Shown: positions 11,987 through 30,907 of the stretch, one piece after another
Layout: the number at the start of each line of letters is the position of its first letter
How positions within the stretch are numbered: position 1 is the first letter of the stretch
DNA from: Candidatus Kuenenia stuttgartensis
GTDB lineage: Bacteria > Planctomycetota > Planctomycetia > Planctomycetales > Planctomycetaceae
Assembly (NCBI GenBank): GCA_945906725.1
Contig: CAMDRI010000007.1
Coordinates: 1-64,000 of the forward strand
Direction: 5' to 3'
Length of the DNA stretch: 64,000 nt
Translations under genes and position numbers: made by a program
The notes under the pieces: model-generated
Database searches by the model: none
What the model saw: the letters and a program-made list of their open reading frames with translations, nothing else
What the model was told of the DNA's origin: nothing

Positions 11987-13684
11987 ATGTCGGACGACAT
12001 CCTTAATAAACTGGTCAATGACGGCGTGGTTTCAAAGGACCAAGTGCAAGAAGCGCAGCACCTTGCGAGTAGCTTGGGAATCAGAACCGAAGAAGCCTTG
12101 ATCAAGTTAGGGTACGTCGATCCAAATGAGATCAGTAACCTTCAAGCCTCAAAGTTCGGATTTGAGACAGTCAACTTAAACGGATATGAGATTCCACCGA
12201 GTGTCGTCGAAATGGTTCCGGAGTCAGTTGCGCGTGAAAACGTCGTCATCCCACTTGGCCTCGACGGGGACGCTCTGACCGTAGCTATAAATGATCCCAT
12301 GAAATTTGAGGTCTTGGACAAGTTGCGCTTTATTTTGAACAGAGAGATCAAAGTAAAAGTTGCCTCGAATGAGTCCATTTTATCAGCAATCAACAGACAC
12401 TACGGTCAGAGCGAAACTGAATCTGTTGACTCTATGATCTCCGAGTTCACTGAAACAGCAATTGACATCACTCAAACAGAACTCAAACAGGCCGAGACGG
12501 TCGCGGGTGATGACGAAAGTGCTCCGATTGTCAGGCTCGTTAATTTGATCATCTCAGAAGCCGTCAGCATGCGTGCCAGTGACATCCACATTGAACCATT
12601 CGAAAGCAGGGTACGCATTCGGTATCGAATTGATGGCGTACTTGTCGAACGAGATAGTCCTCCAAGACGACTTCTTGCGGCTTTGGTATCACGCCTAAAA
12701 ATCATGGCGAACATGGATATTGCGGAAAAAAGGCGTTGCCAGGACGGCCGCATCAAAACGCGAGCTAATGGAAAGGAGTTTGATCTTCGCGTCAGTATTT
12801 TGCCATCGGTTCATGGACAGGCCGTTGTCATGCGTATCCTCGATCGAGACAGCATCAAAATTGGAATCCGAAATCTTGGTTTTAGCGAAGAAAACTATCG
12901 AAAATTCCAAAATATCATCAGGAGACCAAATGGCATTTTTTTAGTGACGGGGCCGACCGGGAGCGGAAAAACCACTACTCTTTATAGTGCTCTAGGTGAG
13001 TTGAACAGACCAGACCGCAAGGTGATCACCGCTGAAGACCCAGTTGAATACCTGCTTCCGGGAATCAATCAAGTTGAAGTGAAATCCGCCATCGGTTTGA
13101 ACTTTGCCTCAATTATCCGCGCGATGCTTCGCCAAGCTCCGAATGTAATCCTCGTTGGAGAAATCCGTGACTCTGAGACTGCCGATATGGCTATCCAGGC
13201 ATCTTTGACAGGCCACTTAGTTTTCAGCACTCTACACACGAACGATGCGCCCGGATCTGTGACTAGACTTATCGACATGGGGGTCCAGCCATTTCTTGTG
13301 GCATCAAGTGTTATGGCCGTCATGGCGCAGCGTCTTGCTCGGGTCGCTTGCCCCAAGTGTCGCGAACCAGTAACACCTGATCAAGGCGAGCTTGAAGCAT
13401 TCAGCATTTCACCGGAACAGGCAGCCGCCGCGACGTTTATGCGAGGCCGCGGATGCAATTACTGTCAACACACTGGCTATCGAGGCCGAGTCGCTGTATT
13501 CGAACTGATGACCATGAACTCTAAGCTACGAGAAATGACATTCAACCGCGAGCCTGCACAAAACATTCGACGCCAAGCAAGATTGATGGGAATGAAATCT
13601 CTCGCTGAAGACGCAACAGCCAAAGCCCTCAAAGGGATAACGACGTTACTTGAGGTCGCACGACTTCAAAAAGCCGTGGACTAA
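11987..13684 (+). CDS. PilB/GspE-type secretion ATPase (copy 1)
   Basis: N-terminal MshEN-like domain; ASDIHIEPFESRVRIRYRIDGVL, LVTGPTGSGKTTTLYSAL, AEDPVEY, GEIRDSETADMAIQASLTGHLVFSTLHTNDA, CPKC..CNYC zinc motif. Confidence 0.95.
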   Translation: MSDDILNKLVNDGVVSKDQVQEAQHLASSLGIRTEEALIKLGYVDPNEISNLQASKFGFETVNLNGYEIPPSVVEMVPESVARENVVIPLGLDGDALTVAINDPMKFEVLDKLRFILNREIKVKVASNESILSAINRHYGQSETESVDSMISEFTETAIDITQTELKQAETVAGDDESAPIVRLVNLIISEAVSMRASDIHIEPFESRVRIRYRIDGVLVERDSPPRRLLAALVSRLKIMANMDIAEKRRCQDGRIKTRANGKEFDLRVSILPSVHGQAVVMRILDRDSIKIGIRNLGFSEENYRKFQNIIRRPNGIFLVTGPTGSGKTTTLYSALGELNRPDRKVITAEDPVEYLLPGINQVEVKSAIGLNFASIIRAMLRQAPNVILVGEIRDSETADMAIQASLTGHLVFSTLHTNDAPGSVTRLIDMGVQPFLVASSVMAVMAQRLARVACPKCREPVTPDQGELEAFSISPEQAAAATFMRGRGCNYCQHTGYRGRVAVFELMTMNSKLREMTFNREPAQNIRRQARLMGMKSLAEDATAKALKGITTLLEVARLQKAVD

Positions 13685-13782
13685 CCGCTATGGCGTGACG
13701 ACTTCGCTGGAATTTGTTGTCGCACCATTCGTTTGCAGCACAATGGATTTCGTCGCATGACGAAGCCAAGGGAGGGGACTAC

Positions 13783-14898
13783 ATGGCATCAATCCAGATC
13801 GACAAATTGCTCGAAACGGTTGTCAAAGAACGCGTCAGCGATCTTCACATTTCGTGCGGACAGCCTCCCGTTTTGCGTGTTGGCGGGCACATGGTGCGAT
13901 TGGAGACAAAAGTTCTCGAGGCAGAAGATACGGTCTCACTGATGAAAAGCATCACACCTGAGCGAAATCAGCAGGAGTTACAGGAAGTTGGCACAACGGA
14001 TTTTGGTTTCGCCTTTGGCACCAAAGCCCGCTTTCGAGTCTCAGTATTTAAGCAAAAAGGCAAGATCTCGATTGTGCTGCGAAGAATACCGACAGACTTT
14101 TTAACGTTTGAACAACTTGGACTGCCGCCATTAATCCGCGACTTGATCCAAAGACCTAGAGGACTCTTTCTGGTAACCGGCCCGACTGGATCCGGAAAAA
14201 CAACCAGCCTCGCCAGTATGATTAACTGGCTGAACGAGAACTGCGATCATCACATCATCACGCTAGAAGATCCGATTGAATACTATCACGTCCACAAAAA
14301 GAGCACAGTCAATCAACGTGAGGTTGGCGTTGACGTCCCCAGCTTTTCAGAGGCGTTACGCCGCTGCCTCCGGCAGGATCCTGATGTGATCCTTGTCGGC
14401 GAATTACGCGATTTGGAAACGATGGAATCGGCGATCACCGCTGCCGAAACTGGACACCTGGTCTTCGGAACTTTGCATACAACAGGCGCGCAGGGAACAG
14501 TCGATCGAATCATTGACGTTTTCCCGACGAACCAGCAGGAACAGATTCGTACTCAACTTTCCACATCAATTATCGCGGTACTGAGTCAGCAGTTGTTGTC
14601 GCGAAAGCCCAAAGGAATGGTTGCGGCGTATGAATTCATGGTCGTCACTTCCGCGATCGCCAATCTTATCCGCGAGGGAAAGACCTTCCGCATCAATTCG
14701 TCCCTTCAAACTGGCAAGAAGTATGGAATGCAGCTGATGGACGATTCGCTGTTCAGTCTTTGGAAGAATCAACTTTGCGAAGAGTCCGACGTCATCATTC
14801 GCGCAAATAATTCCGGAGACCTACGAGACAAGATTGCCAAGGCAAAAAAAGGCCTCCTAGACGACGAGGAATCTGGAGAGGATTCCGATGACGAGTAG
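13783..14898 (+). CDS. pilT: PilT-like twitching/retraction ATPase with acidic C-terminal tail
   Basis: SDLHISCGQPPVLRVGG, GLFLVTGPTGSGKTTSLASMI, TLEDPIEYYHVHKKSTVNQREVG, GELRDLETMESAITAAETGHLVFGTLHT; SD ggaggggact upstream of ATG 13783. Confidence 0.93.
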   Translation: MASIQIDKLLETVVKERVSDLHISCGQPPVLRVGGHMVRLETKVLEAEDTVSLMKSITPERNQQELQEVGTTDFGFAFGTKARFRVSVFKQKGKISIVLRRIPTDFLTFEQLGLPPLIRDLIQRPRGLFLVTGPTGSGKTTSLASMINWLNENCDHHIITLEDPIEYYHVHKKSTVNQREVGVDVPSFSEALRRCLRQDPDVILVGELRDLETMESAITAAETGHLVFGTLHTTGAQGTVDRIIDVFPTNQQEQIRTQLSTSIIAVLSQQLLSRKPKGMVAAYEFMVVTSAIANLIREGKTFRINSSLQTGKKYGMQLMDDSLFSLWKNQLCEESDVIIRANNSGDLRDKIAKAKKGLLDDEESGEDSDDE

Positions 14899-14960
14899 CC
14901 GGGCCAATAATCGCTGCTGGCGATTAAACACTTTCCATTTGATTTACGGAGTGATTCTCA

Positions 14961-16670
14961 ATGGCTTCGCGACGCTTGGGGCAAATATTGGTCGATCTCG
15001 GCCACATCACCGAGGATCAACTCTGGGACATTTTGGAAGAACAAAAAAAGAGTCCAGGAGAAATCATCGGCCGAGTTGCGTTGCGCATGAGCCTGGTAAG
15101 CGAATCGCAGATTACCGAGGCGCTCGCTGAACAATGGGGAATGGCGGTCGTCAACCTCAAGGAAACTAATATCCCGCCAAAAGTTTTGGAACTTGTCCCA
15201 CAAACGATGGCCGAGATCTATAAGATCATGCCAATCTCGTTAAAGAATAACATACTTACAGTAGCAATGGCTGATCCACACAACATGGCCGCCCTAGATG
15301 ATTTGCGCAATTTTCTTGGTTACGACGTCAGAGGGGCTGTTTCTAATCACCAAGACGTTGAAGAGGCAATCACCCGACATTATGCAGACAAAGAAGATAG
15401 CATTGAAGATGTAATCGGAAAGATGGAAGAAGAATTCCCCGAGGAGAGGGGCAAGGAAGGTGCTTACGATATTGGCTCAGAAGATGAACTCGTAAACTCC
15501 GCACCGATCCGCAAATTGCTGAATATGGTGCTGTTGTTGGCTATTCGCGACCAAGCCAGCGACATTCACTTCGAGCCATTTGAAGATGAATTCAAAATTC
15601 GTGTCAAAGCAGATGGTGTTCTGTACGAAATGGTTCCTCCTCCTCGCCATTTGGCGAATGCTATTACCACACGTATTAAAGTGATGGCAAATTTAGATAT
15701 CGCAGAAAGGCGACTTCCGCAAGACGGCCGAATTGAATTGAACGTTGGAGGAAACTCAGTCGATCTTCGTGTCAGTGTTTTGCCGACGATGTTTGGCGAG
15801 TCCGTCGTGATGCGAATACTGGATCGAACAGTTGTGCAGTTGGATTTGAACAAAATCGGACTAGATGCAACAACCCTGTCTCGGTTTCGGCAATGTTTAC
15901 ATACTCCAAACGGCATTGTTTTAGTGACGGGACCTACAGGGAGCGGAAAGACGACCACACTCTATTCCGCCTTGAACGAACTCAACGACATTGAGACAAA
16001 GATCATCACCACCGAGGATCCAGTCGAGTATGAAATCGAGGGACTCCTACAGATACCTGTGAATCATGATATTGATGTCACCTTTGCCAACGTATTACGT
16101 GCCATCTTGCGACACGATCCGGATATCATCTTGGTTGGCGAAATTCGTGATTATGAAACTGCTGAAACTGCTATCCAAAGTGCGCTGACCGGGCATTTGG
16201 TGTTTAGCACGCTGCATACAAATGACGCACCTTCCACCGTTACTCGCCTGCGCGACATGGGCATCGCGCCGTTCATGATTACAGCTACAGTTGAAGCCAT
16301 TTTGGCGCAACGTCTAGTTCGCCGCATCTGTAGTGAATGTCGTACTGAGTTTGAACCCAGCGACGAGTTACTGATGGAACTCCAACTTCCAATCGCCCAG
16401 GCCCGCCAGTATCGGTTTTATTATGGAAAAGGCTGCGCTCGATGTAACAACAGCGGATACAAAGGTCGGTGTGGCCTCTACGAATTGATGAATATCACGG
16501 ATGATATTCGTGACATGATTGCGGCCAACGCATCCTCCGATGAACTCCGAAACATGGCTCGCAGCCAAGGAATGACAACTCTGCGAGAGGCGGGACTAAA
16601 ATTGATTTTTGATGGCGTAACCACCATTGACGAGGTGGTGCGAGAGACCGTCATGGAAGACGTTGAATAA
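14961..16670 (+). CDS. PilB/GspE-type secretion ATPase (copy 2)
   Basis: MASRRLGQILVDLGHITEDQLWDILEEQ..; VTGPTGSGKTTTLYSALNEL; TTEDPVEYEIEGLLQIPV; CSEC..CARC zinc motif. Confidence 0.95.
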   Translation: MASRRLGQILVDLGHITEDQLWDILEEQKKSPGEIIGRVALRMSLVSESQITEALAEQWGMAVVNLKETNIPPKVLELVPQTMAEIYKIMPISLKNNILTVAMADPHNMAALDDLRNFLGYDVRGAVSNHQDVEEAITRHYADKEDSIEDVIGKMEEEFPEERGKEGAYDIGSEDELVNSAPIRKLLNMVLLLAIRDQASDIHFEPFEDEFKIRVKADGVLYEMVPPPRHLANAITTRIKVMANLDIAERRLPQDGRIELNVGGNSVDLRVSVLPTMFGESVVMRILDRTVVQLDLNKIGLDATTLSRFRQCLHTPNGIVLVTGPTGSGKTTTLYSALNELNDIETKIITTEDPVEYEIEGLLQIPVNHDIDVTFANVLRAILRHDPDIILVGEIRDYETAETAIQSALTGHLVFSTLHTNDAPSTVTRLRDMGIAPFMITATVEAILAQRLVRRICSECRTEFEPSDELLMELQLPIAQARQYRFYYGKGCARCNNSGYKGRCGLYELMNITDDIRDMIAANASSDELRNMARSQGMTTLREAGLKLIFDGVTTIDEVVRETVMEDVE

Positions 16671-16744: not shown

Positions 16745-17998
16745 ATGCCGGTATATCAGTACGAGGCGATGGACAATACTGGAACTGAGGTCAAGGACAC
16801 CATCGAAGCTGGCTCCGAAGCCGAAGCTCAGCAGAAGATTAAGGAACAGGGTTTCTTCGTCACCAAGATCTCCGAGAAGGGGCGAGGCGGTAAGAAGAAG
16901 GAAACCGAGAAGAAGAAAAAGCCAGCGAGCGGCCCAAGGAAAAAGAAAGGGTTTTCGTTCGGATCAGTAAAGGGAAAACATCTTTGCGCTTTTACTCGCC
17001 AACTTTCGACACTTCAGGACGCAGGATTGCCCATTTTAAGAAGTCTGAAAATCCTCGAGGGACAATCAAAGCCCGGAGTGCTGAAAAACTCTTTGATTGG
17101 GGTGATTGAAGACATCGAATCCGGCAACACGCTATCGGAAGCCATGTCCAAGCAGCCGAAGGCATTTGACGGCCTTTACGTCAACATGGTGAAAGCAGGT
17201 GAGGCCGGTGGGGCGTTGGAAATCATTTTGCAGCGTTTGGCCGAGTTTAAGGAGCGAGCCCAGAGCCTCAAGCGTAAGGTACAAGGCGCGATGATTTATC
17301 CCTGTGCGGTCATTTTCGTAGCAACCGCAATCGTAGGATTTATCATGTACTACATCATTCCGAAGTTTAAGCAGATCTTCCTGGGCTTTGGGACGGAGCT
17401 TCCCGGAATCACCGTCATGCTGATCAACATGAGCGACATCGTGGTGAGGTACTTCTACTTGTTCCCGGCAATCCCGATCGGCTTTTGGTTGATTATAAAA
17501 ATCATACGAAAGAACAAAACAGGCGAGTTTGTCTCGGACTGGCTGGTGCTAAAGATTCCTTTGATGGGCCAAATTCTCAGCAAGTCAATCGTGGCTCGAA
17601 CCATGCGAACGCTGGGAACGCTCGTGGCCTCTGGTGTGCCAATCTTGGAAGGCTTGACCATTGCACGTGACACGGCAGGCAACGCGGTGTTTCGAAAAGC
17701 ATTCGACAACGTTTATGCCGCCATTCGTGAAGGCGAGTCCATCGCGACCCCGTTAAGGGAGGCGAGAATCGTGGACGATATCGTGGTCAACATGATCGAC
17801 GTCGGAGAAGAAACCGGTGCCTTGGACAATATGATGTACAAGATCGCCGATGTGTATGACGAGGAAGTTTCGGTACTGGTCGATGGCTTGGTCAGCCTGC
17901 TGGAACCGCTGATGGTCGTCATTCTGGGTTTCATCGTCGGCTTCATCGTGATCGCGTTGTTCATGCCGCTAGTCAAACTGCTGAACGATCTGTCGTGA
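16745..17998 (+). CDS. PilC/GspF-type inner-membrane platform protein with Lys-rich linker
   Basis: MPVYQYEAMDNTGTEVKDTIEAGSEAEAQQKIKEQGFFV; CAFTRQLSTLQDAGLPILRSLKILEGQ; MVKAGEAGGALEIILQRLAEFKER. Confidence 0.95.
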   Translation: MPVYQYEAMDNTGTEVKDTIEAGSEAEAQQKIKEQGFFVTKISEKGRGGKKKETEKKKKPASGPRKKKGFSFGSVKGKHLCAFTRQLSTLQDAGLPILRSLKILEGQSKPGVLKNSLIGVIEDIESGNTLSEAMSKQPKAFDGLYVNMVKAGEAGGALEIILQRLAEFKERAQSLKRKVQGAMIYPCAVIFVATAIVGFIMYYIIPKFKQIFLGFGTELPGITVMLINMSDIVVRYFYLFPAIPIGFWLIIKIIRKNKTGEFVSDWLVLKIPLMGQILSKSIVARTMRTLGTLVASGVPILEGLTIARDTAGNAVFRKAFDNVYAAIREGESIATPLREARIVDDIVVNMIDVGEETGALDNMMYKIADVYDEEVSVLVDGLVSLLEPLMVVILGFIVGFIVIALFMPLVKLLNDLS

Positions 17999-18209
17999 TA
18001 TGTTCCCGAAAGGCAACGGCCGGAAACCTTCCGGTCGGGTCACAATTTTCTGGATGCTGACTATCTGAGTCAGCCGTCAATAGGTTTTCGAGTGGTGATC
18101 GAATCCGTCCGGATTGGATTCTCTGTTGAGCGATTTTCGCCGTGGTGGACGGTCGAAAGTGGGATGCTGGTTTTGGGTGAATGCTTTTAGCGTCAGAGGA
18201 GATACTGAG

Positions 18210-19238
18210 ATGCAAGCCGTTTGGAAGTCCTCACCGAGCCATCGGAAACACACACCGCCACCGCGTACCGGTTTCACGCTTATTGAGTTGATGGTGGTGG
18301 TAGTAATCATCGTCCTTTTGATTGGCTTGGTGCTGCCAGCGATTTCGGGTGTCCGCAGCCGAGCACGCGATGTCGAGGTGCGAAAGGAGATTGGCGATTT
18401 GGAGCAGGCCATCACGCAATTCAAGGTGGCTTACGGTGTCGAACCGCCGAGCATGGTGACGATTTATAAGACCGATGCGCAGTGGGTTGCAGACACGAGA
18501 AGTCGAGCGGCGATCAAGAGAATTTGGCCGAAGTTAAATTTTGCTTACGCAGATCCGATGAGTCCGAATGTCGGGAGCGGCGGCCTGGCATTTCCGCCCG
18601 GTGTAACGGCGGTGCATTTGAATGGAGCCGAGTGTTTGGTTTTCTTTCTGGGCGGTGTTGCGAGTAGTACGTCAGGTGCCCTCATTGGATTTTCCAAGGA
18701 TCCACAACTTCCATTCAAAAGCGACACAAGCCGTGAAGGGCCGTTTTTTGAGTTCAAAGGAGCATATGACTCAATGACTTCAAAGTGGACCGGTCGTTTA
18801 ACAACGAACGACGACGGCGACGCAATGCCGACGTACTTAGACACGTTGCCACAGCAAACAAAACCTTATGTTTACTTTCACTCCAATGACGGAGGCAGTT
18901 ACCCGTTTGAAACGGTGGCGTCGACCACCACATCTGCCAGTTGGAGAAATACAGATTGCCTCGGTTACACGGTCAGTATGGGAATTTCCGTGTATGACTC
19001 AACAAAAACCTTGATGGAACACGCTTATTTTCAATCGTTTCCCGGCACCGGTATGACGCCGCTTGCTCAGGCTCGAAGCAGTCTGCCACATAAATCCAAG
19101 AGCTTCCAAATCATCTCGCCGGGTCCGGATGCAGCCTACGGCACGGGTGGTCTTTTCAATCCGGAGAACAAGTCAAATTTGTCGCCGGCTGACGGGGATA
19201 ACATCACCAATTTTCATCCCGGGCGGTTGGTGAATTAG
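18210..19238 (+). CDS. Type II/IV pseudopilin-like protein
   Basis: PRTGFTLIELMVVVVIIVLLIGLVLPAISGVRSRARDVEV prepilin motif; SD-like gagga before ATG 18210. Confidence 0.85.
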   Translation: MQAVWKSSPSHRKHTPPPRTGFTLIELMVVVVIIVLLIGLVLPAISGVRSRARDVEVRKEIGDLEQAITQFKVAYGVEPPSMVTIYKTDAQWVADTRSRAAIKRIWPKLNFAYADPMSPNVGSGGLAFPPGVTAVHLNGAECLVFFLGGVASSTSGALIGFSKDPQLPFKSDTSREGPFFEFKGAYDSMTSKWTGRLTTNDDGDAMPTYLDTLPQQTKPYVYFHSNDGGSYPFETVASTTTSASWRNTDCLGYTVSMGISVYDSTKTLMEHAYFQSFPGTGMTPLAQARSSLPHKSKSFQIISPGPDAAYGTGGLFNPENKSNLSPADGDNITNFHPGRLVN

Positions 19239-19342: not shown

Positions 19343-20698
19343 ATGAACTCTTCGCATGCGGCGTCTGGTCGAAGTGAGACTTCGACGGTCCGTTTCAGAC
19401 TACGCGCAGCGTTCACGCTGATCGAGATTCTGATCGTGATTTCGATCATCATCCTCTTGGTGACGATGATGGGCGCGGTTATTGGAAACTCGGTCAAGAA
19501 GGCTCGCGAGGCGGCGACGGCGACGCTGATCGAGAAGATCGACAAGTTGTTGGACGAGCGGACGAAGGGTTTCGATCGAGCGACCAAGTCACTGGATTTC
19601 CAGCGGATCATCGCGATTCGCAAGCAGTTGTTGGAGGCGGGTGGCACCTTCGGTGTCTCGCCGAAAGTGTTGTCGGCTGTGGCTCGAAAAGATTTCTTTA
19701 AGGCGAACTTTCCACAGCGATACGCTGACTTGACTGACGTGCTGACGTTTCCGATGGGAAGTACACCAAACGGAGTTCCCGATGCGATTGAATTCGATTC
19801 CACGTTGAAGTCCGAAGACGCGAATGGCAATGGTGCTTTGGATGTTGGCGAGGACACAAATAGCAACGGAGTTTTGGACGGCTACGTGCATGCGAAGCAC
19901 AAGCCGGAGACGGAGAGTTCAGCGCTGCTGTACTACATGCTGACTCGCATGCAAGTGTTTGGCGTGCCTCCAGTCGGCGAGTCAGATTTCAGTACAAGCG
20001 AATATCGTGATACCGACGGAGATGGGTTACTGGAGTTCGTGGATGGCTGGGGCCGACCGTTGCGGTTCTATCGTTGGCCGACGCGGCTACTGAAACCGAA
20101 TGGAATTCGCGGCGCGGATAATCAACCGGGATTTGCAGGGATCAACGACAATCCCGAGTTGAACAACACCGTGGACGATTTTTTGGAGTTCGGCAAGGTC
20201 AGTTCTGACGACATCACGGTCTTGCCATCTCAAAGGGAGATCGCCGGGCATCTGATCGTGGGCTTGCCGAGCGGCCCTGTGTTTTCCGGTCAATGGGATT
20301 CGCTCAGTGAAGACCCGGATGATCCGTATGGCTTGATCTCGACGGAGATCAAACGGCTGTTTCTCCAGAGCAACGGAGCAACTAACGTGACAACGGGACC
20401 GGCCGGATTCAATGAGATGAATTATCCGACGATCGACACTTACCACACGCCGCTGATTATTTCCGTCGGACCGGATGCAGACTTGGGGTTGTTCGAGCCT
20501 TACCAAGGAACGGCCTCGGGCGCAAGCGGCGTGGGTGTGCTCGACACAGATCTGGGTATTCTGGCTCAGCCGATTCATGGCCCCGTTGGCCCCTACGACT
20601 TTGGCAATCTGGCTGTGACTCCAAACGGCAATCATGTGATCTCGGCGTTGGGGGACAATATCACGAATCGCAATCGGCGTGCGGGAAGGGGGAAGTGA
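19343..20698 (+). CDS. Pseudopilin-like protein with Ca-binding-like EDxNxNGxLDxGED repeat
   Basis: RAAFTLIEILIVISIIILLVTMMGAVI; EDANGNGALDVGEDTNSNGVLDG. Confidence 0.85.
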   Translation: MNSSHAASGRSETSTVRFRLRAAFTLIEILIVISIIILLVTMMGAVIGNSVKKAREAATATLIEKIDKLLDERTKGFDRATKSLDFQRIIAIRKQLLEAGGTFGVSPKVLSAVARKDFFKANFPQRYADLTDVLTFPMGSTPNGVPDAIEFDSTLKSEDANGNGALDVGEDTNSNGVLDGYVHAKHKPETESSALLYYMLTRMQVFGVPPVGESDFSTSEYRDTDGDGLLEFVDGWGRPLRFYRWPTRLLKPNGIRGADNQPGFAGINDNPELNNTVDDFLEFGKVSSDDITVLPSQREIAGHLIVGLPSGPVFSGQWDSLSEDPDDPYGLISTEIKRLFLQSNGATNVTTGPAGFNEMNYPTIDTYHTPLIISVGPDADLGLFEPYQGTASGASGVGVLDTDLGILAQPIHGPVGPYDFGNLAVTPNGNHVISALGDNITNRNRRAGRGK

Positions 20699-20699
20699 C

Positions 20700-22145
20700 A
20701 TGAACAGCGTTCATGTCGCTTCGCGGCATAAAAAAGTAGTCGGCACACTCCGTGTGCCGAGTCGGCACGCGGAGTGTGCCGACTACTTTGGCTTCACGCT
20801 GGTGGAGTTGTTGGTCGTGATCACTGTGTTGTTGATTTTAGTGGTGATGACGGTCACCTCGATCGATTTCACGTTTTCGTCGGAGCGGTTGAAAGCGGGT
20901 GCTCGGCAGGTGCAATCGGCGTTGGCGGGCGCACGCGATCGGGCGATCTTCGCCAAGGAACCGCGCGGTTTGCGGTTTTTGGTTGACTCAAGCGATTCAA
21001 CGTCAGTCGAATCTCGCGTTGTCACGAGCATGATTTACATCGGCGCTCCGAGCAATTGGTCGGAAGGTCAGATTCGGCTGGAGCGAGTGGATGCCAATGG
21101 TGACAACATCGCCGAACCAGCCGTCGATACGGACAGCGACGGAACGCTCGACGCAACGGCGGTCATGATCGTCCGAGGCGATGCGCTTTGCGGCTGGTAC
21201 ACCTTGAAAGAGCGTGGCTTTCTGGGGTTGTTTGAGGACCAGAATCTCAACGGCCGATTGGATTCCGGCGAGGATGCAAACGGCAATGGACTTCTGGACC
21301 TCGACGCGCCGCGGATCAAGATTCCGGCGGACGACAACGGTTCGTGGTACACCGTGCTGGTCCTCAGTTCTGGTCCCTACGCAATGACACCGGTAAATCA
21401 GGTGTTGAAATTGGTGACGCCGTATCGCGACCCTGGCACCACTCCGGAGACGAGTGTGGTTGCGTTTCAGAACGGCGGGCCGAATACCTACATCCTGGAA
21501 CTACCGCCGCGCATGCTGCCGGAGGCTCAACCCATCCTGTTGCCGGCCGGAGTTTGTATCGACCTGGATGGTTCGCAGGTGCCACGGAGTTGGCGGTCGT
21601 TCGGCGAGGATCTCAACGACAACGGGGTGTTGAATGGTGGCGAGGACACGAACATGAACGGCCAGTTGGACCGTTCGAGCTATTCCTCGCGAATGGACGT
21701 TTTGTTTTCTCCGCGCGGCATCGTGACCGGTTCAGTGGCCGCCGAGGGTTTGCTGCACTTGTACGTCGCGGAACTCAAAGATGTGCAACGAATTGTCGAC
21801 ATCGGAGTCGACGTGAGCGGGACTGGAAGCGGATCAATGTCTCCTCGGCTTCCGATTCATGGCAACACGCTGTCGTTGGCACGAGTCCCGTTTCAAATCG
21901 TACCGGGGGGGAATCAATTCAGCCCGGAAGAACCGATCGGTCAGCGGACGATCGTTTCGATCTTCACTCAGACGGGCAAAATCTCAGCACATGCGATCGA
22001 TCCCACGGACGGTGAAGACCGAAACGGAAACGGCATGCTCGACCCAGGAGAGGACGTGAATGGCAACGGAATGCTCGATCCTCCGAATGGCTACGCGGAC
22101 GTTCCATTCCTGTTTTCCACTCGAGGCGAGGCGGCCAGCCAATGA
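20700..22145 (+). CDS. GspH-like pseudopilin with long leader and Ca-binding-like repeats
   Basis: YFGFTLVELLVVITVLLILVVMTVTSIDF; FEDQNLNGRLDSGEDANGNGLLD; FGEDLNDNGVLNGGEDTNMNGQLD; GEDRNGNGMLDPGEDVNGNGMLD. Confidence 0.85.
   Translation: MNSVHVASRHKKVVGTLRVPSRHAECADYFGFTLVELLVVITVLLILVVMTVTSIDFTFSSERLKAGARQVQSALAGARDRAIFAKEPRGLRFLVDSSDSTSVESRVVTSMIYIGAPSNWSEGQIRLERVDANGDNIAEPAVDTDSDGTLDATAVMIVRGDALCGWYTLKERGFLGLFEDQNLNGRLDSGEDANGNGLLDLDAPRIKIPADDNGSWYTVLVLSSGPYAMTPVNQVLKLVTPYRDPGTTPETSVVAFQNGGPNTYILELPPRMLPEAQPILLPAGVCIDLDGSQVPRSWRSFGEDLNDNGVLNGGEDTNMNGQLDRSSYSSRMDVLFSPRGIVTGSVAAEGLLHLYVAELKDVQRIVDIGVDVSGTGSGSMSPRLPIHGNTLSLARVPFQIVPGGNQFSPEEPIGQRTIVSIFTQTGKISAHAIDPTDGEDRNGNGMLDPGEDVNGNGMLDPPNGYADVPFLFSTRGEAASQ
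20733..20789. repeat. REP-like palindrome inserted in frame in pseudopilin leader (AGTCGGCACACTCCGTGTGCCGA family)
   Basis: AAAGTAGTCGGCACACTCCGTGTGCCGA / TCGGCACGCGGAGTGTGCCGACTACTTT, 27/28 pairing; 57 bp = 19 codons. Confidence 0.8.
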
Positions 22146-23599
22146 ACACTCTGCGGACTAAAATTGTCCAGCGAATCCGTTCGCCTCATCTGCGAGGCGG
22201 TACGACGCTGACCGAAGTGCTCATGTCGTTGATGATCATGAGCATCGGCATCGTGTCGGTGGCGACGTTGTTTCCGCTCTCAACACTGCGTGTGCTGGAA
22301 GCCAGCCGACAAACCAATTCGACGATCACGCGGTTCTCGGCCGAAGCGGTGATCGATGTCGATGCGGGGTTCTTGCACAACCCGGACGGCACGTTTCCGC
22401 CAGGTGGAGCCGACCTGACACCGTACAACAGTCAGGCGTTTCGTGGGCAGGTGTACTTCGTCGATCCGTATGGCTGGCAGACGTTTCATCGCGACGACGC
22501 ATTGTTCCCGGCGCCTTGGTCGCCACCCGGGTCGTTGGCGGTCGCTTCGAATCCGCCGCTGCGCGACACACTCGGGCAATTGCCGCTCGGATCGACGGTC
22601 AATGTGCCACTGATGCGGCGACACTCCGGGGCGACGATGTTTGCCAGCGTGGGGATCAATCCATATCCGATGATCGCCGCAGACAGCAATTTGGCGATCA
22701 ACCGGGCCGCGAAATTGGTCGGACAACCCGACAATTGGAAGTTGATCACCTCAACGGAGGTGACGACGATCGCCACGCCCGTGCCAGGAATCACCTCGCT
22801 CTCGTTGGATACCGATGCGGACCTGACGGCGGTGAGTGTGGCACCAGGCGTGGCGTATCGTGCAGTCATCTTTGATCTCAGTGGCCAGTACAGCGAAACG
22901 CGACTCCTAGCGGCCAACCCGATCGGCCAGGCATTGGCCTTCACGCCGGCGTTGCCCAGTCGGTTTGACACTTCGCCGACAGGGGTTTCGCCGAACGTTG
23001 GCAAGGTGCGCATCGAAGTGCTGGACGAGGTTTACACCTGGGCGATGTCCGTGCGCAAACGGGCAAGCGGACCGGCCAACGTCGATGTCGTGGTCTTCTT
23101 CAAACGCAGTTTCAAACCCGAACACGAATACGTTTATCCGGCCGCGCTGCGGCGGTACACGCTGGGTCCGGATGGTCAGCCTGGAGTTGCTGGCGTCAAT
23201 GACAACAACAACTTCAACAGTGCCAATAATCCGCTCATTGATGAAGTTGCTGAGATTGGCTACGTCGGCAGCGATGACTTGCCGAACACCGTCGTGACGG
23301 TCGATTTCAGCAGCTTGCCGGCCGGGGCCGACACTCCGGCATTCCGTCGCGGCGGCTATGTGTGCGACACCAAGAACGGTTTGTGGTATCGCATCCAGAA
23401 CATCCAGAACGCAACGACGACCACGGTCGATTTAGTCTTGGATAAATTCATTCAGCGCGACAACACCGAAGACTTGTTCAATTTCGGAACCGTCGATGCC
23501 GGCGAAGACGTCAACAACGACGGGATCGTTCAGCTTGGTGGGCTGTACTGGAACCCCAGCGTCGTGAATGTCTTCCCGTTGGAAATTAAGGAACCGTGA
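22142..23599 (+). CDS. GspI/PilV-like pseudopilin
   Basis: RGGTTLTEVLMSLMIMSIGIVSVATLFPLSTLRVLEASRQ; overlaps preceding stop (ATGA). Confidence 0.75.
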   Translation: MNTLRTKIVQRIRSPHLRGGTTLTEVLMSLMIMSIGIVSVATLFPLSTLRVLEASRQTNSTITRFSAEAVIDVDAGFLHNPDGTFPPGGADLTPYNSQAFRGQVYFVDPYGWQTFHRDDALFPAPWSPPGSLAVASNPPLRDTLGQLPLGSTVNVPLMRRHSGATMFASVGINPYPMIAADSNLAINRAAKLVGQPDNWKLITSTEVTTIATPVPGITSLSLDTDADLTAVSVAPGVAYRAVIFDLSGQYSETRLLAANPIGQALAFTPALPSRFDTSPTGVSPNVGKVRIEVLDEVYTWAMSVRKRASGPANVDVVVFFKRSFKPEHEYVYPAALRRYTLGPDGQPGVAGVNDNNNFNSANNPLIDEVAEIGYVGSDDLPNTVVTVDFSSLPAGADTPAFRRGGYVCDTKNGLWYRIQNIQNATTTTVDLVLDKFIQRDNTEDLFNFGTVDAGEDVNNDGIVQLGGLYWNPSVVNVFPLEIKEP

Positions 23600-23640
23600 G
23601 AACTGAGGCGAGGGATCAGGGAATTTCAGAAGGTGGAATC

Positions 23641-25641
23641 ATGAATCGGTCGCGAACAATTCGATCACGGGCTGGCTTCACGCTGGTCGAGATGCTGATG
23701 GCGGTGACGTTGGTGCTGATCATGATGGTGATGTTCGCCGAGGTGTTTCAAATCGCCGGCGGCGCGGTCACGAAGCAGCGGACGCTGGCGGACAACGATC
23801 AAAATGCTCGGACGTTCGCCACGATCATGCGTGCCGATCTCGACAAGCGGACGTTTCGCACGCTGCTGCCGTTTTATCCCGGTGAGCCGACCAATTCGGC
23901 CACGTCGTTCAACAACCGCCGCGGTTACTTCTACATCTCCTCGAACAATCCGGGGGACAGTTCGGATGACGTGTTGCAGTTCACGGTCATGTCCACGGTC
24001 AGCCTGCGGAACGCCGACGAGTCGCCGTATTACGGCAAGGCGGTGCAGTTGCCTCAGCCGACTCCCCCAGGCTGGAACACAACGCAACAGTTCTACAATT
24101 TCTTGCAGAATCCGAATCAACCCGAGCGTGATGACGGACAGGTGATTCCCAACGGCGCGGCAACCTCACGAGCGGCTGAAGTCAGTTACTTCATGCGCGG
24201 CAGCCGCCTGTATCGCCGAGTCATGTTGCTGCGCGACCCGATTCCAGCACCGGGAGTCCCTTCGGATTTGTCGAACGACCCGCAACCGAAGTCCGCGACT
24301 GGTGCGGACTATTTCAGCGCCGTCGGCGGCTATTCCGGAAATTTCTGGAGCGACTTCGATTTCTCGGCCTATCGACTTCCCACTGGGATCAACGTGGTGA
24401 CTGGTGGGACAACACCCATCAGTGCGCGGTTTGTGGGGCTCGACTTTCTGGGAAACGCGATGGCGACTCCACCATACCCAATGACGACGGGAGATCCCAA
24501 TGAGGCGATTGAGACGTACTTTTACTCGCTGGGCCAGACGTGGAATCGATTCGGTTTCAATTCGGAGTTCGCGCTGAACTCCCCCTTGAACGGGTTGCCT
24601 CGTGAATTCAGCGGCACGAACCCGGCAACAACAGGCTTTTTCTTTCTGGGACGGTTCTCACAAGAAGAGACTTCTTCCTCGGCGTTTCAATACCCCTACG
24701 GGGCTTGGAGCAACGGTGGCAATCCACTGAACACGTCGAATGCGCTGGTCGATACCACGCCAGCCGATGGCGTGGTCGACGGGTATGCCGGCGGAGCTCG
24801 TGCCGGTGTCGATTTGCTGCTCAGCAATGTGCATGAATTCCGCGTTGAGTTGTGGGATGAGCGGGTCGGAGATTTCGTTCCGGCCGGTCACACAACGGGG
24901 GTCGGCGACTTTCATTCAGCGAGACAGTTGAATCCGGATTACCATCCACTGGGTCGCCCGGCGAGTCTCACCAATATCTTTGACACTTGGCATCCCCACT
25001 TTGATCGCAACCTCGACAACAACCAGTTCAATGATCCGCCTCCGTATCGGCCGCTGAATTACTACCCAACGGGAACTCCTGGGCCGAATGCTCCGTATTG
25101 GACAGCCGGAAGCAGCTACTCGACCGAAGATGCGAATGGCAACGGAGTGTTGGATGGCAGCGAAGACGGCACCAATGGCTTTCCGAGCGATGGACTACTC
25201 AACGCGAATGTCGTCTTCCCGTTCCTCGACGAGGACGCGAATGGCAACAGTATTGCCGACGCCGGTGAGGACACGAATGGCAACGGTGCGTTCGACCGTG
25301 GCACAATGATCATCCGGCCGCTCGGCCACTCGCTAGCCTATCGCTGCATCCGGAGTGGTACATCGAATGGCAGCCTTGCGAACGAACCGCAATGGACGAC
25401 GACTCCTGGAGTAATCGTTCGCGGGAATGAAGACCTCAACAGCAATGGCATATTGGACGCTGGAGAAGACGTCATCATTCCAAACGGAGCTCTCGATACA
25501 GGGCCGGATTGGATTTGTGAATACAACGCGCGGCCGTTGAAGGCGATTCGGTTAACGGTGCGGTTCGAGCACCCGACCAGCCAGCAAATGAAACAAGTCA
25601 CGATCGTGCATTCGCTCCGCGATACCACGGCGGTGCCGTAA
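23641..25641 (+). CDS. GspJ/PilW-like pseudopilin with Ca-binding-like repeats
   Basis: RAGFTLVEMLMAVTLVLIMMVMFAEVFQIAG; EDANGNGVLDGSEDGTNG; DEDANGNSIADAGEDTNGNGAFD; NEDLNSNGILDAGED. Confidence 0.82.
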   Translation: MNRSRTIRSRAGFTLVEMLMAVTLVLIMMVMFAEVFQIAGGAVTKQRTLADNDQNARTFATIMRADLDKRTFRTLLPFYPGEPTNSATSFNNRRGYFYISSNNPGDSSDDVLQFTVMSTVSLRNADESPYYGKAVQLPQPTPPGWNTTQQFYNFLQNPNQPERDDGQVIPNGAATSRAAEVSYFMRGSRLYRRVMLLRDPIPAPGVPSDLSNDPQPKSATGADYFSAVGGYSGNFWSDFDFSAYRLPTGINVVTGGTTPISARFVGLDFLGNAMATPPYPMTTGDPNEAIETYFYSLGQTWNRFGFNSEFALNSPLNGLPREFSGTNPATTGFFFLGRFSQEETSSSAFQYPYGAWSNGGNPLNTSNALVDTTPADGVVDGYAGGARAGVDLLLSNVHEFRVELWDERVGDFVPAGHTTGVGDFHSARQLNPDYHPLGRPASLTNIFDTWHPHFDRNLDNNQFNDPPPYRPLNYYPTGTPGPNAPYWTAGSSYSTEDANGNGVLDGSEDGTNGFPSDGLLNANVVFPFLDEDANGNSIADAGEDTNGNGAFDRGTMIIRPLGHSLAYRCIRSGTSNGSLANEPQWTTTPGVIVRGNEDLNSNGILDAGEDVIIPNGALDTGPDWICEYNARPLKAIRLTVRFEHPTSQQMKQVTIVHSLRDTTAVP

Positions 25642-25659
25642 CCAACAATTCAAAACACC

Positions 25660-25770
25660 CCACCGAGCTTGTCTCGGTGGCTCGCGGGCATTTGCACTAC
25701 CTCGGAACCTGCGGGAATCATTGAGTAGTGCAGAAGCCTGAAAACCACTGAGGCAAGCTCAGAGTTCTCA
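25660..25770. repeat. REP/BIME-like complex inverted repeat (CCACCGAGCTTGTCTCGGTGG family)
   Basis: CCACCGAGCTTGTCTCGGTGG (palindrome), GCACTAC..GTAGTGC, then CCACTGAGGCAAGCTCAG, which is an imperfect reverse complement of the first arm. Confidence 0.6.
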
Positions 25771-25819
25771 GTACCGAGTGAGCACGCGGGCCGCTGACAC
25801 TACGGTCGGAGATGGAATC

Positions 25820-28800
25820 ATGAAACGTCATTCCGGTTTATTGGAAATGGTGCGTCGGCGGACATCGCGTGCTTCGCGGCGTGCGGCGTGCGGAGCGCTT
25901 GGTTTGTGGGCTTGGTCGAATGCGGGAGACCTGCGGTCGCTCAAGCGGCGGGGTCGGGGGACCCGCGCCGAGCGCGGGCGGCGCGGCAGCACGTTGGTGG
26001 TAGTCATGGCGCTGTTGGGCATGCTGTTGCTGTTGGGGGTGATCTATTTCACGTTCTCCAACCAAGAGCAGCAGAGCGCGACCTACTTCGCCGAAGCGGC
26101 CAAGCGGCTCGACGATCCTGGAGACGACATCGACGCCATCTTCGACGCGGCGACCAAGCAGTTGATTCAAGGGGGCGACGCCACACAGAAGGGGAGCGCG
26201 TTGTTTGCCGGACGGTCCTCGTTGTTGTTCACGATGCTGGGGCACGACTTGCAACCGTACTCAGGGCCTGGGGTCAATCTGATCTTTGTGTCACCAGCCA
26301 TCCCCGGATTTCCCCCAGGATGGAACGTCGATCAAGATCGTGATGGTTCCCCCGATCCGATTACCGCCGGCTACAACTTGGTCGAACTCAACGATTCGCC
26401 CGCAGCGCGGCCAGACTTGTTCGAGCGAAACCAGAGCGCGATGCCCTCGCCGGATGTCGATTACACGGCGACCGATCACAACAATCCGTTCTTGGCCTAT
26501 GAAGGTTGGACGTGGGATTTCAGCACCACGCCGCCGACACGATTGCGGGTCATCAAGCCTTCGTTCCACCGCCCGGAGTTATTCCGCAAGCCAACTGATT
26601 TCAAACCCGAACCCAACTGGGCCACGCTTCCCGGAAACGGCGGGCGCTCGTTCCGGCCGCACCCCGATCACCTTTACGTCTGGCGGCAGGGCAACCCCGG
26701 ATTTGTCGTTCGGCGGTTCGTCAGTGCCGCGTCTCCGGAAGCTGGCCTCTCGTCGTTTCCATTTCAAGTGGATCTCGACGCTGACGGGGTCTTCAACGAA
26801 CAAGGGGCGTGGGACCGAGTGGCGGGAACCGCCGCGACCTACAACCAGCCGTTTGAGTACGACGTCGATACCGACGGCGACAATGAGCGCGACGCGATTT
26901 GGATGGACTTGGATTTGCCGGTCCTGGTGCGACCCACCGACAACGCGACCTACATTCCGATGATCGCTTTCAAGGTCATCGACTTGGACTCCAAACTGAA
27001 TCTCAACGCGATCGGCAACTTGTCCGGCGAAACGCGTGTGGTGGCGACCACCAACTTTGGCAACATCGTGAACCCGACAGACCGGGATATCAGCATTTCG
27101 AGCATGGGGCTGTCGTCGTGGGAGATCAATCCGATGTGGGCGCTGGACACGCTGCCATCCGAAGTGCCGGCGCCGACGCTCATCGACCACACCGCCTATT
27201 TTCACACGCCAATCACGCAGCGGCAACTCGCCAACATGGAATGGTGGTGGTTGAACAAGGGACGTGTGAAGTATCCGACGTCCGGATCGCCGCAGATTTT
27301 CGCGGGCCGCTACGGAGAAGCGAATCGGATGTGGAACGTGCTGGCTGTCAGCACGAATGCGATCAGCGTCCAGCAATCCAATAGCAACTTATTCCCGTTC
27401 CCCGGCGTGTGGGATGCGAACGACAATCGTGACGGCAACGACGGCGGGCAAATCACAATCGCCGGAGTGCTCGGCGGTCAGACGTTGCCTTGGCAGCACC
27501 CGGTGGCGCTCAACGGTCGTGGCTCCTGGTGGAATCCGGTGAACCCAAAACAAATGGATCTGCGCTCGTTCCAACAATTGGAAGACGCCAACAGCAACGG
27601 CGTGCTCGATCCGGGCGAAGATCTCAACGCTAACAACATCTTGGATTCCGGCCCGGTGATGTTTTTACGGTACACCGACCTCGGTGTGGGCGCTGACGGT
27701 TCAGGCTACGGCAACGTCGCGTGGTTCAATTTCCTCAACGGAACTTTGATGCAGAACACAGTGGTCGGAGCGAACTTTGGGGTACCACTGACGATTCCGT
27801 TACCGCCAAATCCAACGACGAACGACTTTGTGTTGGTGGATGATCCCACGGAACTCACTCTGGAATCGAAATATGTGATCCGTCCCTACGACGAACCGCT
27901 GGAAGCGGTCGATACGTTGTTGCTGCACATGTCCAAGTCCGACCGGGACCGCACTGGCATCGCCTCGCGCGTCGCCGACCTGATGCCCGGCAACATCGTC
28001 CCCGGAACCAGCGGCACGCAGAATCAACTGGATGTCGCCAAGCGATTCACGACCATCGGTTCGGATCTGAAGACGTTCGCTTTGCCGCGTCTGCCAGGCG
28101 TCCGTGATTGGGAGTTCAACGTGGACGACGACGGCAACGGTTTTCCGGAGTTTCCGCCGCAATTCGGCAGCGGTACCGCACAAGCCTTTCAACCTCTCGA
28201 CCCATTCCGTCCGCAATTGCGGCGGCTGCTGAAAAATGAACTTGGCAATACATCGCATATTGAGCACACGTTTCGCTTGGGCATCAATGAGCTACTCGAC
28301 GTCGAACGGATTCCGAATCAGCCCGCCAATCCGCTGAGCGATCCGTTGCAGTACCGGCCACTGACCCCACATTCGACCGACATTACGCTGACGACTATCC
28401 CACCACTCAGCCCGTTGCCGGCCTATCCTCCGACGACCGAGGGGGAGAAGGAATTCTGGGCGAGACGCGACCGACAACAAATGGCTCGCGACATCTATGT
28501 GATGCTCTACACGTTCTGTGGCGGCAACGATACGGTTGACATGACCTCCACGTCGGGGATGACGGCCTATCCGGCAAACACTCGACGGATGATGGCGCAG
28601 TTCGCGGTCAACATGGTCGATGCCCTGGACCGAGACAACGTCATCACTGCCTTCGAGTACGACAACAACCTCGCCAACGGCTGGAACTTGGACGACGACG
28701 ACACAGCCAACACGACTCCTTCGGCGGGGGACACCGTTCCCGGTGATCGTGGCGTCGTCTTCGGTGTCGAGGCTCAGGAACTGACCTTCAGCGAGGTGAT

Positions 28801-30907
28801 GTGGATTCGGCAGGCGCAAGGCACAAACGGTGACAGAACACCATTCGACGATAATGTCGTTGACGGCACGAACTTCTTTCAAGTTGAACTACGGTCCGTC
28901 AGTCCAAAGTCTGTTGCCCTTGCGACTACTGTTTCCAACACAGCAACCACAGGCATCTGGCGGATTCATCGCGACGACAACTTTGATGCGACGATCGACG
29001 CGACGACCGAGAACGCATTGATCTTTTCCAGTGGAGCCGGAAGCGTGGCTCCGGGCGCGTTATTCACGATTGCTTCGGCCGATCTCACATCGGTTGGTTC
29101 GGCATCGTTGTACATCGACTACACGGGGACTGCATCCACAAGTACTGCGAAACATGCCGAACTAATCGCACCCAACTTAACCACGGGGACGGTCTACATC
29201 GGAACAACCCTGCCTCCTGAAGCGAATTTGGACTTACTTCACGCAGCGCATGCAACTCGATTCACGCTGCAAAATGGCGGTGCAGCAACGGGAAATTTTC
29301 TCAGCCGCTCGAATCCCCCGCCTGGAACTGTGACATCTACAAACTTGCATTTGGAACGTCGGCTAAACCCAAACCTCCCGCAACTTTCGCTGGCAACCAA
29401 CCCATTCACCACCGTCGACTCATTTCGCGGGATTGATCGCCGCGAATTAAGTGTTCCCTCAACCGCCACGCAATTGAATGCTTCCACCCAGCTAATGAAT
29501 GCCGTCGTCGCGACCAGAGAGCGACGTCAACCATTCGACCGTGGAGACGTTGTCGACAGCACCGGGAGTGGCTCGTCGGTGCATGTCAACAGCATCGGCC
29601 AAACCAACCCAACCGGTCCCGCGACGACTAACTTGCACCAAATCCATCACGATCGCGACTTCGCTTCGGTCGTCGAGTTATTCAACATCCCGCTGCGTGA
29701 CCCCGCTGCGGTGACGCGCAATCAACGGAACTCGCGCCGTCCACCTGAAAGTCCGGTGGGTGTACCAGCAGGTCCTTTCCCAGCGTTGGATCAGCGAGGG
29801 CAACTGGAAGTTGGCGGCCCATTCACGTTCGGAGCAGCAGTCTTGATCCAAAGCGAGGACAGCGACGAAAACGGAACGCTGGCCCTCGGCGAGGACAGCA
29901 ACGGCAATGGAGCTCTTGATCCCGGCGAGGATGGCACGAACGGCAATCCGATGGATGGCGTCCTGCAATTCGGCGAGGACGTCAACGGAAACACTGTGCT
30001 GGACGTCCCCGGCACGGCAAATCACGCCGCCCCGAATCATTTTCATCGGCTGCTGTCGCTCGTCGAAGTTCCTACTCGCTCGCACCGTCAGTTGGGTGAT
30101 CCGCTGAAGCTCACGCGAGTTCCTGGCAAACTGAATCTCAACGGCATCAACGATCCGCGAATTCTCGCAGCGCTGCTCGATGAGCGGGCGCTAATGAACG
30201 CTCCCGAACGGGATCTCAACGGCAACGGAATTTTCGATGCGGCTGAAGACCTCAACGGCAACGGCATCTTCGACTACGGCCTGACCGATGCCGGCCAGCC
30301 GACCGACGAACTCTACGGTGCCGGGCCGTTAGGTATTGGCCGAGATTGGTGGTTCAACTTCCTGGTCTCGCGCGACGGAATCGATCCGACCAGCAATTTA
30401 CCGTTGCCAATGAGTGCGGGGATACCGTCGCCACGACCACCTCGGCCGTTCCGCGACATGGGACTGCTGCGATCCAGCCAGAGCACGACGCCGCTCTCCT
30501 CACCTGTGGAGGACACTGTCTTGCGGCGTCTGCCGAATAGCATTTCCGGACGTCGATTGTTTGAACTGGGAAGCGAAAATCCGTCACCTCCAGGAGCTGA
30601 CGAGTTCCTTGATGGCACGGTCGCTCCCACGTTGCGTCATCGGCTGCTGTCGAAAGTCGCCAACAACACCTCCACGCGCAGCAATTGCTTCCTGGTGTTT
30701 GTGACCATTGGCATGTTCGAGTGCAAAGAACTGCCGAACGGGGCCACCCGCGTCGGTGCCCCGATGGATGTCGATAACGACGGCCAACCGGACACGCACC
30801 GGGCCGTGTTTATCATCGACCGCTCGATTGCCGAAGAAGCCTACGACAAGGGGAGCAAGTCGTTCGATTGGAAGAAATTGGTTCTGGCCAAGCAGCGCGT
30901 GAATTGA
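25820..30907 (+). CDS. Giant GspK-like pseudopilin / general secretion protein
   Basis: RRGSTLVVVMALLGMLLLLGVIYFTFSNQEQQSATYFAEAA (no Glu5, as in GspK); INTERNAL EDANSNGVLDPGEDLNANNILD, GEDSNGNGALDPGEDGTNGNPMDGVLQFGEDVNGN, RDLNGNGIFDAAEDLNGNGIFD; last gene of the pseudopilin run. Confidence 0.75.
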   Translation: MKRHSGLLEMVRRRTSRASRRAACGALGLWAWSNAGDLRSLKRRGRGTRAERGRRGSTLVVVMALLGMLLLLGVIYFTFSNQEQQSATYFAEAAKRLDDPGDDIDAIFDAATKQLIQGGDATQKGSALFAGRSSLLFTMLGHDLQPYSGPGVNLIFVSPAIPGFPPGWNVDQDRDGSPDPITAGYNLVELNDSPAARPDLFERNQSAMPSPDVDYTATDHNNPFLAYEGWTWDFSTTPPTRLRVIKPSFHRPELFRKPTDFKPEPNWATLPGNGGRSFRPHPDHLYVWRQGNPGFVVRRFVSAASPEAGLSSFPFQVDLDADGVFNEQGAWDRVAGTAATYNQPFEYDVDTDGDNERDAIWMDLDLPVLVRPTDNATYIPMIAFKVIDLDSKLNLNAIGNLSGETRVVATTNFGNIVNPTDRDISISSMGLSSWEINPMWALDTLPSEVPAPTLIDHTAYFHTPITQRQLANMEWWWLNKGRVKYPTSGSPQIFAGRYGEANRMWNVLAVSTNAISVQQSNSNLFPFPGVWDANDNRDGNDGGQITIAGVLGGQTLPWQHPVALNGRGSWWNPVNPKQMDLRSFQQLEDANSNGVLDPGEDLNANNILDSGPVMFLRYTDLGVGADGSGYGNVAWFNFLNGTLMQNTVVGANFGVPLTIPLPPNPTTNDFVLVDDPTELTLESKYVIRPYDEPLEAVDTLLLHMSKSDRDRTGIASRVADLMPGNIVPGTSGTQNQLDVAKRFTTIGSDLKTFALPRLPGVRDWEFNVDDDGNGFPEFPPQFGSGTAQAFQPLDPFRPQLRRLLKNELGNTSHIEHTFRLGINELLDVERIPNQPANPLSDPLQYRPLTPHSTDITLTTIPPLSPLPAYPPTTEGEKEFWARRDRQQMARDIYVMLYTFCGGNDTVDMTSTSGMTAYPANTRRMMAQFAVNMVDALDRDNVITAFEYDNNLANGWNLDDDDTANTTPSAGDTVPGDRGVVFGVEAQELTFSEVMWIRQAQGTNGDRTPFDDNVVDGTNFFQVELRSVSPKSVALATTVSNTATTGIWRIHRDDNFDATIDATTENALIFSSGAGSVAPGALFTIASADLTSVGSASLYIDYTGTASTSTAKHAELIAPNLTTGTVYIGTTLPPEANLDLLHAAHATRFTLQNGGAATGNFLSRSNPPPGTVTSTNLHLERRLNPNLPQLSLATNPFTTVDSFRGIDRRELSVPSTATQLNASTQLMNAVVATRERRQPFDRGDVVDSTGSGSSVHVNSIGQTNPTGPATTNLHQIHHDRDFASVVELFNIPLRDPAAVTRNQRNSRRPPESPVGVPAGPFPALDQRGQLEVGGPFTFGAAVLIQSEDSDENGTLALGEDSNGNGALDPGEDGTNGNPMDGVLQFGEDVNGNTVLDVPGTANHAAPNHFHRLLSLVEVPTRSHRQLGDPLKLTRVPGKLNLNGINDPRILAALLDERALMNAPERDLNGNGIFDAAEDLNGNGIFDYGLTDAGQPTDELYGAGPLGIGRDWWFNFLVSRDGIDPTSNLPLPMSAGIPSPRPPRPFRDMGLLRSSQSTTPLSSPVEDTVLRRLPNSISGRRLFELGSENPSPPGADEFLDGTVAPTLRHRLLSKVANNTSTRSNCFLVFVTIGMFECKELPNGATRVGAPMDVDNDGQPDTHRAVFIIDRSIAEEAYDKGSKSFDWKKLVLAKQRVN

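Follow-up and report, generated by a model that had tools for sequence, protein, structure and literature searches.

In the pilus operon of a planctomycete-type bacterium, Candidatus Kuenenia stuttgartensis (assembly GCA_945906725.1; genome size 5.45 Mb), we found a short repeat in the minor pilins that is probably a portable double metal-binding loop, with Ca2+ the likely metal, gained repeatedly in exposed loops of exported proteins and with minor pilins as a favoured host. The operon lies in positions 1 to 64,000 of contig CAMDRI010000007.1, the whole stretch of DNA analysed and hereafter the window. With D at position 1, N at 3 and 5, G at 6, L at 8, D at 9 and E at 12, the motif D-x-N-x-N-G-x-L-D-x-G-E spans an entire EF-hand-type loop, 12 residues long, having ligands at 1, 3, 5, 9 and 12, Gly at 6 and a hydrophobic residue at 8. 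Loops follow head to tail with a period of 12, Glu 12 of one standing immediately before Asp 1 of the next, and the usual form is a doublet, EDxNxNGxLDxGEDxNxNGxLD (for example, GEDRNGNGMLDPGEDVNGNGMLD). Among 414 loops anchored on N3-x-N5-G6, D1 was present in 75%, L8 in 68%, D9 in 73% and E12 in 49%, and G11 was preferred too. A loose pattern returned 82 doublets, 28 longer arrays and 137 single loops, the doublet being the commonest multiple arrangement. The motif consensus and one array of a beta-helix protein scored above the cut-off of DUF7151 (PF23657), over 14-16 of its 46 positions; the single match to this family in the genome itself fell under the cut-off and outside the operon.

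Four pilin-like genes of the operon, those starting at 19343, 20700, 23641 and 25820, encode 2, 7, 4 and 6 loops, respectively, compared with averages of 0.003-0.03 in shuffles of the same proteins. An earlier, sequence-only reading had named these four genes, quoting examples that we recovered verbatim, and its weak fifth case, 22142, proved to be a decayed copy at a place where relatives have a better one. Its extension of the motif to the entire set did not hold, as the GspG-like prepilin (18114) has no loops; five of the six prepilins thus bear the module, counting the decayed copy. Outside the operon, the genome carries the doublet chiefly in a 2110-residue beta-helix protein (PF13229); single cases were found in an Nramp-family transporter (NF037982), in another GspK-like protein and in an exported, unclassified protein of 3129 residues, and one further match is doubtful. 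Within the genus, a multi-domain cytochrome c protein is a further host, as are large surface-type proteins. All 10 aligned orthologs from the genus retain the Nramp module, and G019, G012 and one G020 copy lack it; the module lies between two hydrophobic segments that, judged from the fold, would be transmembrane segments (TM) 5 and 6, which would place it in an extracellular loop. The transporter gene itself (G000:C30:10640-12529, L121) encodes the doublet plus extra DxDxDG loops between the apparent TM5 and TM6, and its match in G011 contains one TGA stop. Contig CAMAWN010000061.1 (L223) codes for a beta-helix protein of this genus.

Substitution patterns point to constraint on the proposed ligands. 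In three pairs of beta-helix orthologs, ligand positions differ by 2-4%, compared with 27-32% for spacers and 7-14% for the remaining protein; ligand versus spacer was significant in all three pairs (p<=2e-5), ligand versus the rest in G000/G003 only, and spacers exceeded the remaining protein in all three. In the pilins, positions 1, 3, 5 and 12 (D1, N3, N5, E12) differ by 16-26% and positions 2, 7 and 10 by 67-75%, against a background of 45%; for both sets, motif phase was read from one sequence only. Protein-level constraint on the module is clear from these alignments, and conservation of the ligands favours a function over passive repeat DNA.

The module is also patchily distributed among close relatives. 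Orthologous pilins in operons of the family have or lack it at many differing sites, as clean in-frame insertions of 22-26 residues. At K1 (sites are named in the table), the LTAIGGNP of relatives is interrupted by a 23-residue insert in this genome alone; one further site in the GspH-like protein is filled only in G003, some sites in the GspJ-like protein only in G003, G001 or G005, and additional sites occur in L171 and L181. Beta-helix orthologs that are 70-85% identical likewise vary, both in having or lacking entire inserts and in how long their arrays are (differences of 8, 16, 24 and 48 residues). We suggest that the module has been gained and lost many times at differing sites in the pilin set, beta-helix proteins, the Nramp transporter and others; arrays also grow and shrink inside the beta-helix protein. 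Of the pilin-set proteins examined, a GspK-like protein of G021 (L098; 2113 amino acids, aa) is the most heavily loaded, with 21 pattern matches, about 19 of them loop-type; more loop arrays occur in L123, L122 and L272, from genus and family members, with some doublets spaced by 11 residues or longer.

Minor pilins carry the doublet in other phyla too. A search of genome contigs with a degenerate DNA pattern for the doublet returned at least 118 stretches, many from Planctomycetota and Omnitrophota and others from Duganella, Rhodothermales, Deltaproteobacteria and further groups; within the phylum, 35 of 294 sampled genomes had the doublet at E<=1e-4. A prepilin-like motif was found in 12 of 48 host open reading frames with the 5' end present, compared with 15 of 224 neighbouring frames (p=6e-4), and in seven Omnitrophota pilins the doublet occupies the last beta hairpin. 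One of these, of GspI type and 149 residues long, was modelled by AlphaFold with a mean predicted local distance difference test score of 89 (88-91 in the module blocks) as an ordered coil between strands, its nearest solved fold being the XcpV/GspI minor pseudopilin (Foldseek probability 0.98, E=0.16). In Omnitrophus fodinae (L172:3825-4073), a secreted protein of about 83 residues has little besides a signal peptide, a linker rich in alanine and a single doublet, and can be seen as a minimal carrier provided by nature.

The reading of these loops as metal-binding, of the Ca2+ type, is well supported by the sequence; we infer Ca2+ as the metal, as well as its affinity, its effect on pili and the origin of new copies. 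Two loops would form a 22-residue insert between beta strands or in another exposed loop, leaving the host fold undisturbed, and the most likely mechanism is that Ca2+ binding orders the loop inserted into minor pilins and the other exported hosts. In the minor pilins the module would stiffen or present a loop on the pilus, such that external Ca2+ could be needed for the pilus to assemble or adhere. Many folds accommodate functional calcium loops of the DxDxDG type, which can be transplanted between strands (PMC3123361), and, as cited there, one such loop inserted between two strands of CD2 sufficed for a Ca2+ site.

Several observations weigh against this reading. The EF-hand likeness proposed from sequence holds for loop spacing, but the EF-hand Pfam models stay just below their cut-offs on motif sequences (PF00036, 24.1 of 25.9 bits; PF13202, 19.5 of 25.4 bits) and match loop positions only. 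Affinity may be weak, given Asn in place of Asp at positions 3 and 5. In the AlphaFold models the doublet is ordered in the Omnitrophota pilin, but in the window's GspH-like protein confidence was about 67 (moderate) for H1 and <50 for H2 and H3, too low to demonstrate a metal geometry in the window proteins, and a fold search with the 481-residue model gave no significant match. Neither model has flanking helices at the module. The Omnitrophota pilins were retrieved via the motif itself, which makes its invariance there a matter of construction, and the rate contrasts use sites with at least one sequence matching the motif, a mild circularity. Support for Ca2+-type loops comes from the full EF-hand spacing, ligands conserved in a mild test, fast spacers and one confidently ordered pilin model.

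How new copies arise is a separate question. Independent convergent origin of each loop through slippage acting locally on stretches of Asp/Asn/Gly-rich DNA, the route argued for in the case of DxDxDG motifs (PMC3123361), is a serious contender, although we lean away from it; it concerns the origin of copies and is compatible with a metal-binding role. A donor copy is not identifiable at the DNA level, and beta-helix arrays varying by 8-48 residues, part in steps of 24 or 48 and part not, indicate that slippage operates. However, several empty sites, including site A (LTFQIAG) and K1, have no Asp/Asn/Gly-rich precursor, and the insert is mostly a doublet with shared non-ligand features (E before D1, N3, N5, L8, G11) that recur across phyla. 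Empty sites lacking such precursors argue for transfer of loops as units; synonymous codons are random between proteins (same-codon fraction 0.53 compared with 0.52 across genomes), which leaves no sign of recent DNA copying from one protein to another, nor of any transfer recent enough for proof. The stronger proposal, that a ready-made double metal-binding loop has moved as a unit among unrelated exported bacterial proteins ("loop splicing"), with minor pilins the preferred landing place across phyla and Ca2+ dependence of pili differing between close relatives, is tentative. Rigden et al. (2011) left open whether Ca2+ loops of this type spread by splicing or arise by convergence, coming to favour convergence, and noted a shortage of cases in which presence and absence within a single tree were informative (PMC3123361). 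Sites of this kind are numerous in this genus, where orthologs from several protein families are empty in some members and filled in others.

Binding of another hard metal (Mn2+, a lanthanide) instead of Ca2+ is an unlikely alternative, despite the presence of the module in an Nramp-family metal transporter and the use of EF-type loops with Asn at position 3 in lanthanide-binding tags; the present data fit each of these metals equally, and among such ions Ca2+ usually dominates outside cells.

Less probable still is that the module is a structural Ca2+ element built permanently into the pseudopilus, where it would link subunits or sense Ca2+ machine-wide, as the sequence-only reading had proposed. 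The share of operon prepilins bearing the module would fit this idea, as would the sites that are shared by the genus, namely H1, J1 and J3; type II secretion system (T2SS) pseudopilins, XcpX among them, do bind Ca2+ (PMC6211770). Nonetheless, most sites differ among orthologs, which largely contradicts it: positional variability across orthologs, named beforehand as refuting a shared module, was looked for and found, most copies being lineage-specific in position. Several family operons (G024, G012) have few or no strict doublets, and the same module occurs in beta-helix, Nramp and other exported proteins.

A mobile or selfish in-frame coding element that incidentally encodes acidic loops, like Rickettsia palindromic elements (RPE) or PARCELs, is similarly improbable: clean in-frame insertions in unrelated genes, changing array lengths and a slight excess of within-genome copy similarity (mean best 50.3 of 66 bases, against 49.4+-0.2 in codon-shuffled controls, and most marked within the beta-helix protein) speak for it, but synonymous codons are randomised between proteins, RNA hairpin folding energy of the copies equals that of the codon-shuffled control, all own-genome matches lie in stop-free open frames, and constraint is ligand-specific. 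Candidates rejected at the DNA level were recent DNA transposition (random synonymous codons, no identifiable donor), a palindromic element of the RPE/PARCEL type (judged by DNA-level similarity and dyad symmetry of the copies; no excess folding energy) and a DNA relic behind the GGC preference at position 4 (0.86), as N-G-N contexts elsewhere already reach 0.69. Target-site duplications at empty and filled sites, checked by eye, gave nothing convincing.

The operon runs from PilB/GspE, PilT, PilB/GspE and PilC/GspF genes (11933, 13699, 14961 and 16745) into six pilin-like genes: GspG-like (18114), X (19343), GspH-like (20700), GspI/PilV-like (22142), GspJ-like (23641) and giant GspK-like (25820). 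The three components that define a type IVa pilus, PilB, PilC and PilT, are all present, PilT over its cut-off and the PilB models just under their equivalog cut-off. The PilT-type ATPase points to a type IV pilus-like system, and the earlier label "pseudopilin" is therefore only partly apt: the genes are pilin-like, but minor pilin of a type IV filament describes them better. A class III prepilin signal with Glu5 (GFTLxE) brings 18114, 20700 and 23641 over the N_methyl cut-off. The 25820 protein has a hydrophobic N-terminal stretch lacking Glu5, with no N_methyl match and no Pfam or NCBIfam family matched in profile searches; operon position and family-wide homologs are what suggest the label GspK-like. 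In 11933-16670, the PilT-type ATPase is sandwiched between two PilB/GspE-type ATPases of one operon. Outside the operon, positions 55486-56484 (minus strand) hold an extra prepilin-like gene of a kind frequent in planctomycetes.

Table. Operon genes and loop modules in the window.
Feature	Position	Strand	Remarks
PilB/GspE-type assembly ATPase, first of two	11933..13681, stop-to-stop frame	+	TIGR02538 E=1.7e-184, just under cut-off
PilT-type retraction ATPase	13699..14895, stop-to-stop frame	+	TIGR01420 441 bits vs cut-off 319
PilB/GspE-type ATPase, second	14961..16670	+	PF00437 E=1.6e-137; TIGR02538 just under cut-off
PilC/GspF membrane protein	16745..17998	+	PF00482 E=1.2e-61
GspG-like prepilin without module	18114..19238	+	N_methyl above cut-off; 0 loops
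Prepilin X, 451 aa, one module (2 loops)	19343..20698	+	TIGR01710 E=4e-4; N_methyl just under cut-off
Module X EDANGNGALDVGEDTNSNGVLD	19814..19879	+	comparable insert in G001, L155; missing from most of family
GspH-like prepilin, 481 aa, three modules and one single DxDxDG loop	20700..22145	+	TIGR01708 E=1e-8; N_methyl above cut-off
Single canonical loop DTDSDGTLD, GspH-like prepilin	21126..21152	+	
Module H1 EDQNLNGRLDSGEDANGNGLLD	21234..21299	+	common to genus, L170, L155
Module H2	21606..21671	+	this genome only, among aligned relatives
Module H3	22014..22079	+	this genome only, among aligned relatives
GspI/PilV-like prepilin, 485 aa, decayed module	22142..23599	+	TIGR02523 E=0.0018; N_methyl under cut-off
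Decayed module, GspI-like prepilin, TEDLFNFGTVDAGEDVNNDGIVQLGG	about 23459..23536	+	weak match 23468-23530; better copies at same place in G003, L155
GspJ-like prepilin, 666 aa, three modules	23641..25641	+	N_methyl above cut-off
Module J1 EDANGNGVLDGSEDGTNGFPSDGLLN	25126..25203	+	common to genus
Module J2 EDANGNSIADAGEDTNGNGAFD	25231..25296	+	
Module J3 EDLNSNGILDAGEDVIIPNGALD	25429..25497	+	common to genus
Giant GspK-like protein, 1695 aa, three module sites	25820..30907	+	homologs throughout family
Single loop DLDADGVFNEQG, GspK-like protein	26771..26806	+	
Module K1 EDANSNGVLDPGEDLNANNILD	27581..27646	+	clean ~23-residue insertion; not in aligned relatives covering site
Module K2, extended array	29855..30019	+	related array in G003; shorter form in G005, G004, G001
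Module K3 RDLNGNGIFDAAEDLNGNGIFD	30209..30274	+	

Our observations suggest that metal-binding surface loops may be added to pili piece by piece, and the doublet offers a sequence handle for spotting possible Ca2+-dependent pilins in uncultured phyla. Within the openly accessible papers searched, we found no description of it. Like EF-hand and Dx[DN]xDG loops (PF00036, PF13202; PMC3123361), it has the 12-residue ligand spacing, many unrelated folds as hosts and no fixed flanking secondary structure; unlike them, it is a helix-free tandem of period 12 with N at 3 and 5, usually a doublet, lineage-specific in orthologs and below Pfam cut-offs. TSP3 (thrombospondin-3; PF18884) and dockerin (PF00404), both invoked in the sequence-only reading, are similarly Asp/Asn/Gly-rich calcium repeats, but profile searches of the genome with bacterial TSP3 and with dockerin gave 0 matches each, and we reject that identity. 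The PERCAL motif of bacterial heme peroxidases, matched in a pseudopilin structure too, resembles the module as a Ca2+-binding motif inserted in variable number in a host domain, but has a different consensus, GxDGxx[GN][TN]xDD, and a single host family (PMC3396595). PARCEL (PMC2996958) is likewise a short tandem coding repeat of exported proteins, patchy across phyla and variable in copy number; it has 25 residues, is amphipathic and shows DNA dyad symmetry, whereas the module has 12 residues and a metal-loop pattern, with no excess hairpin energy. Finally, modular pilins such as S. sanguinis PilB (PMC8179133) also have an additional functional module grafted onto a type IV pilin, there a whole folded domain joined to the pilin end, and here a 22-residue loop insert within the pilin fold, at many sites.

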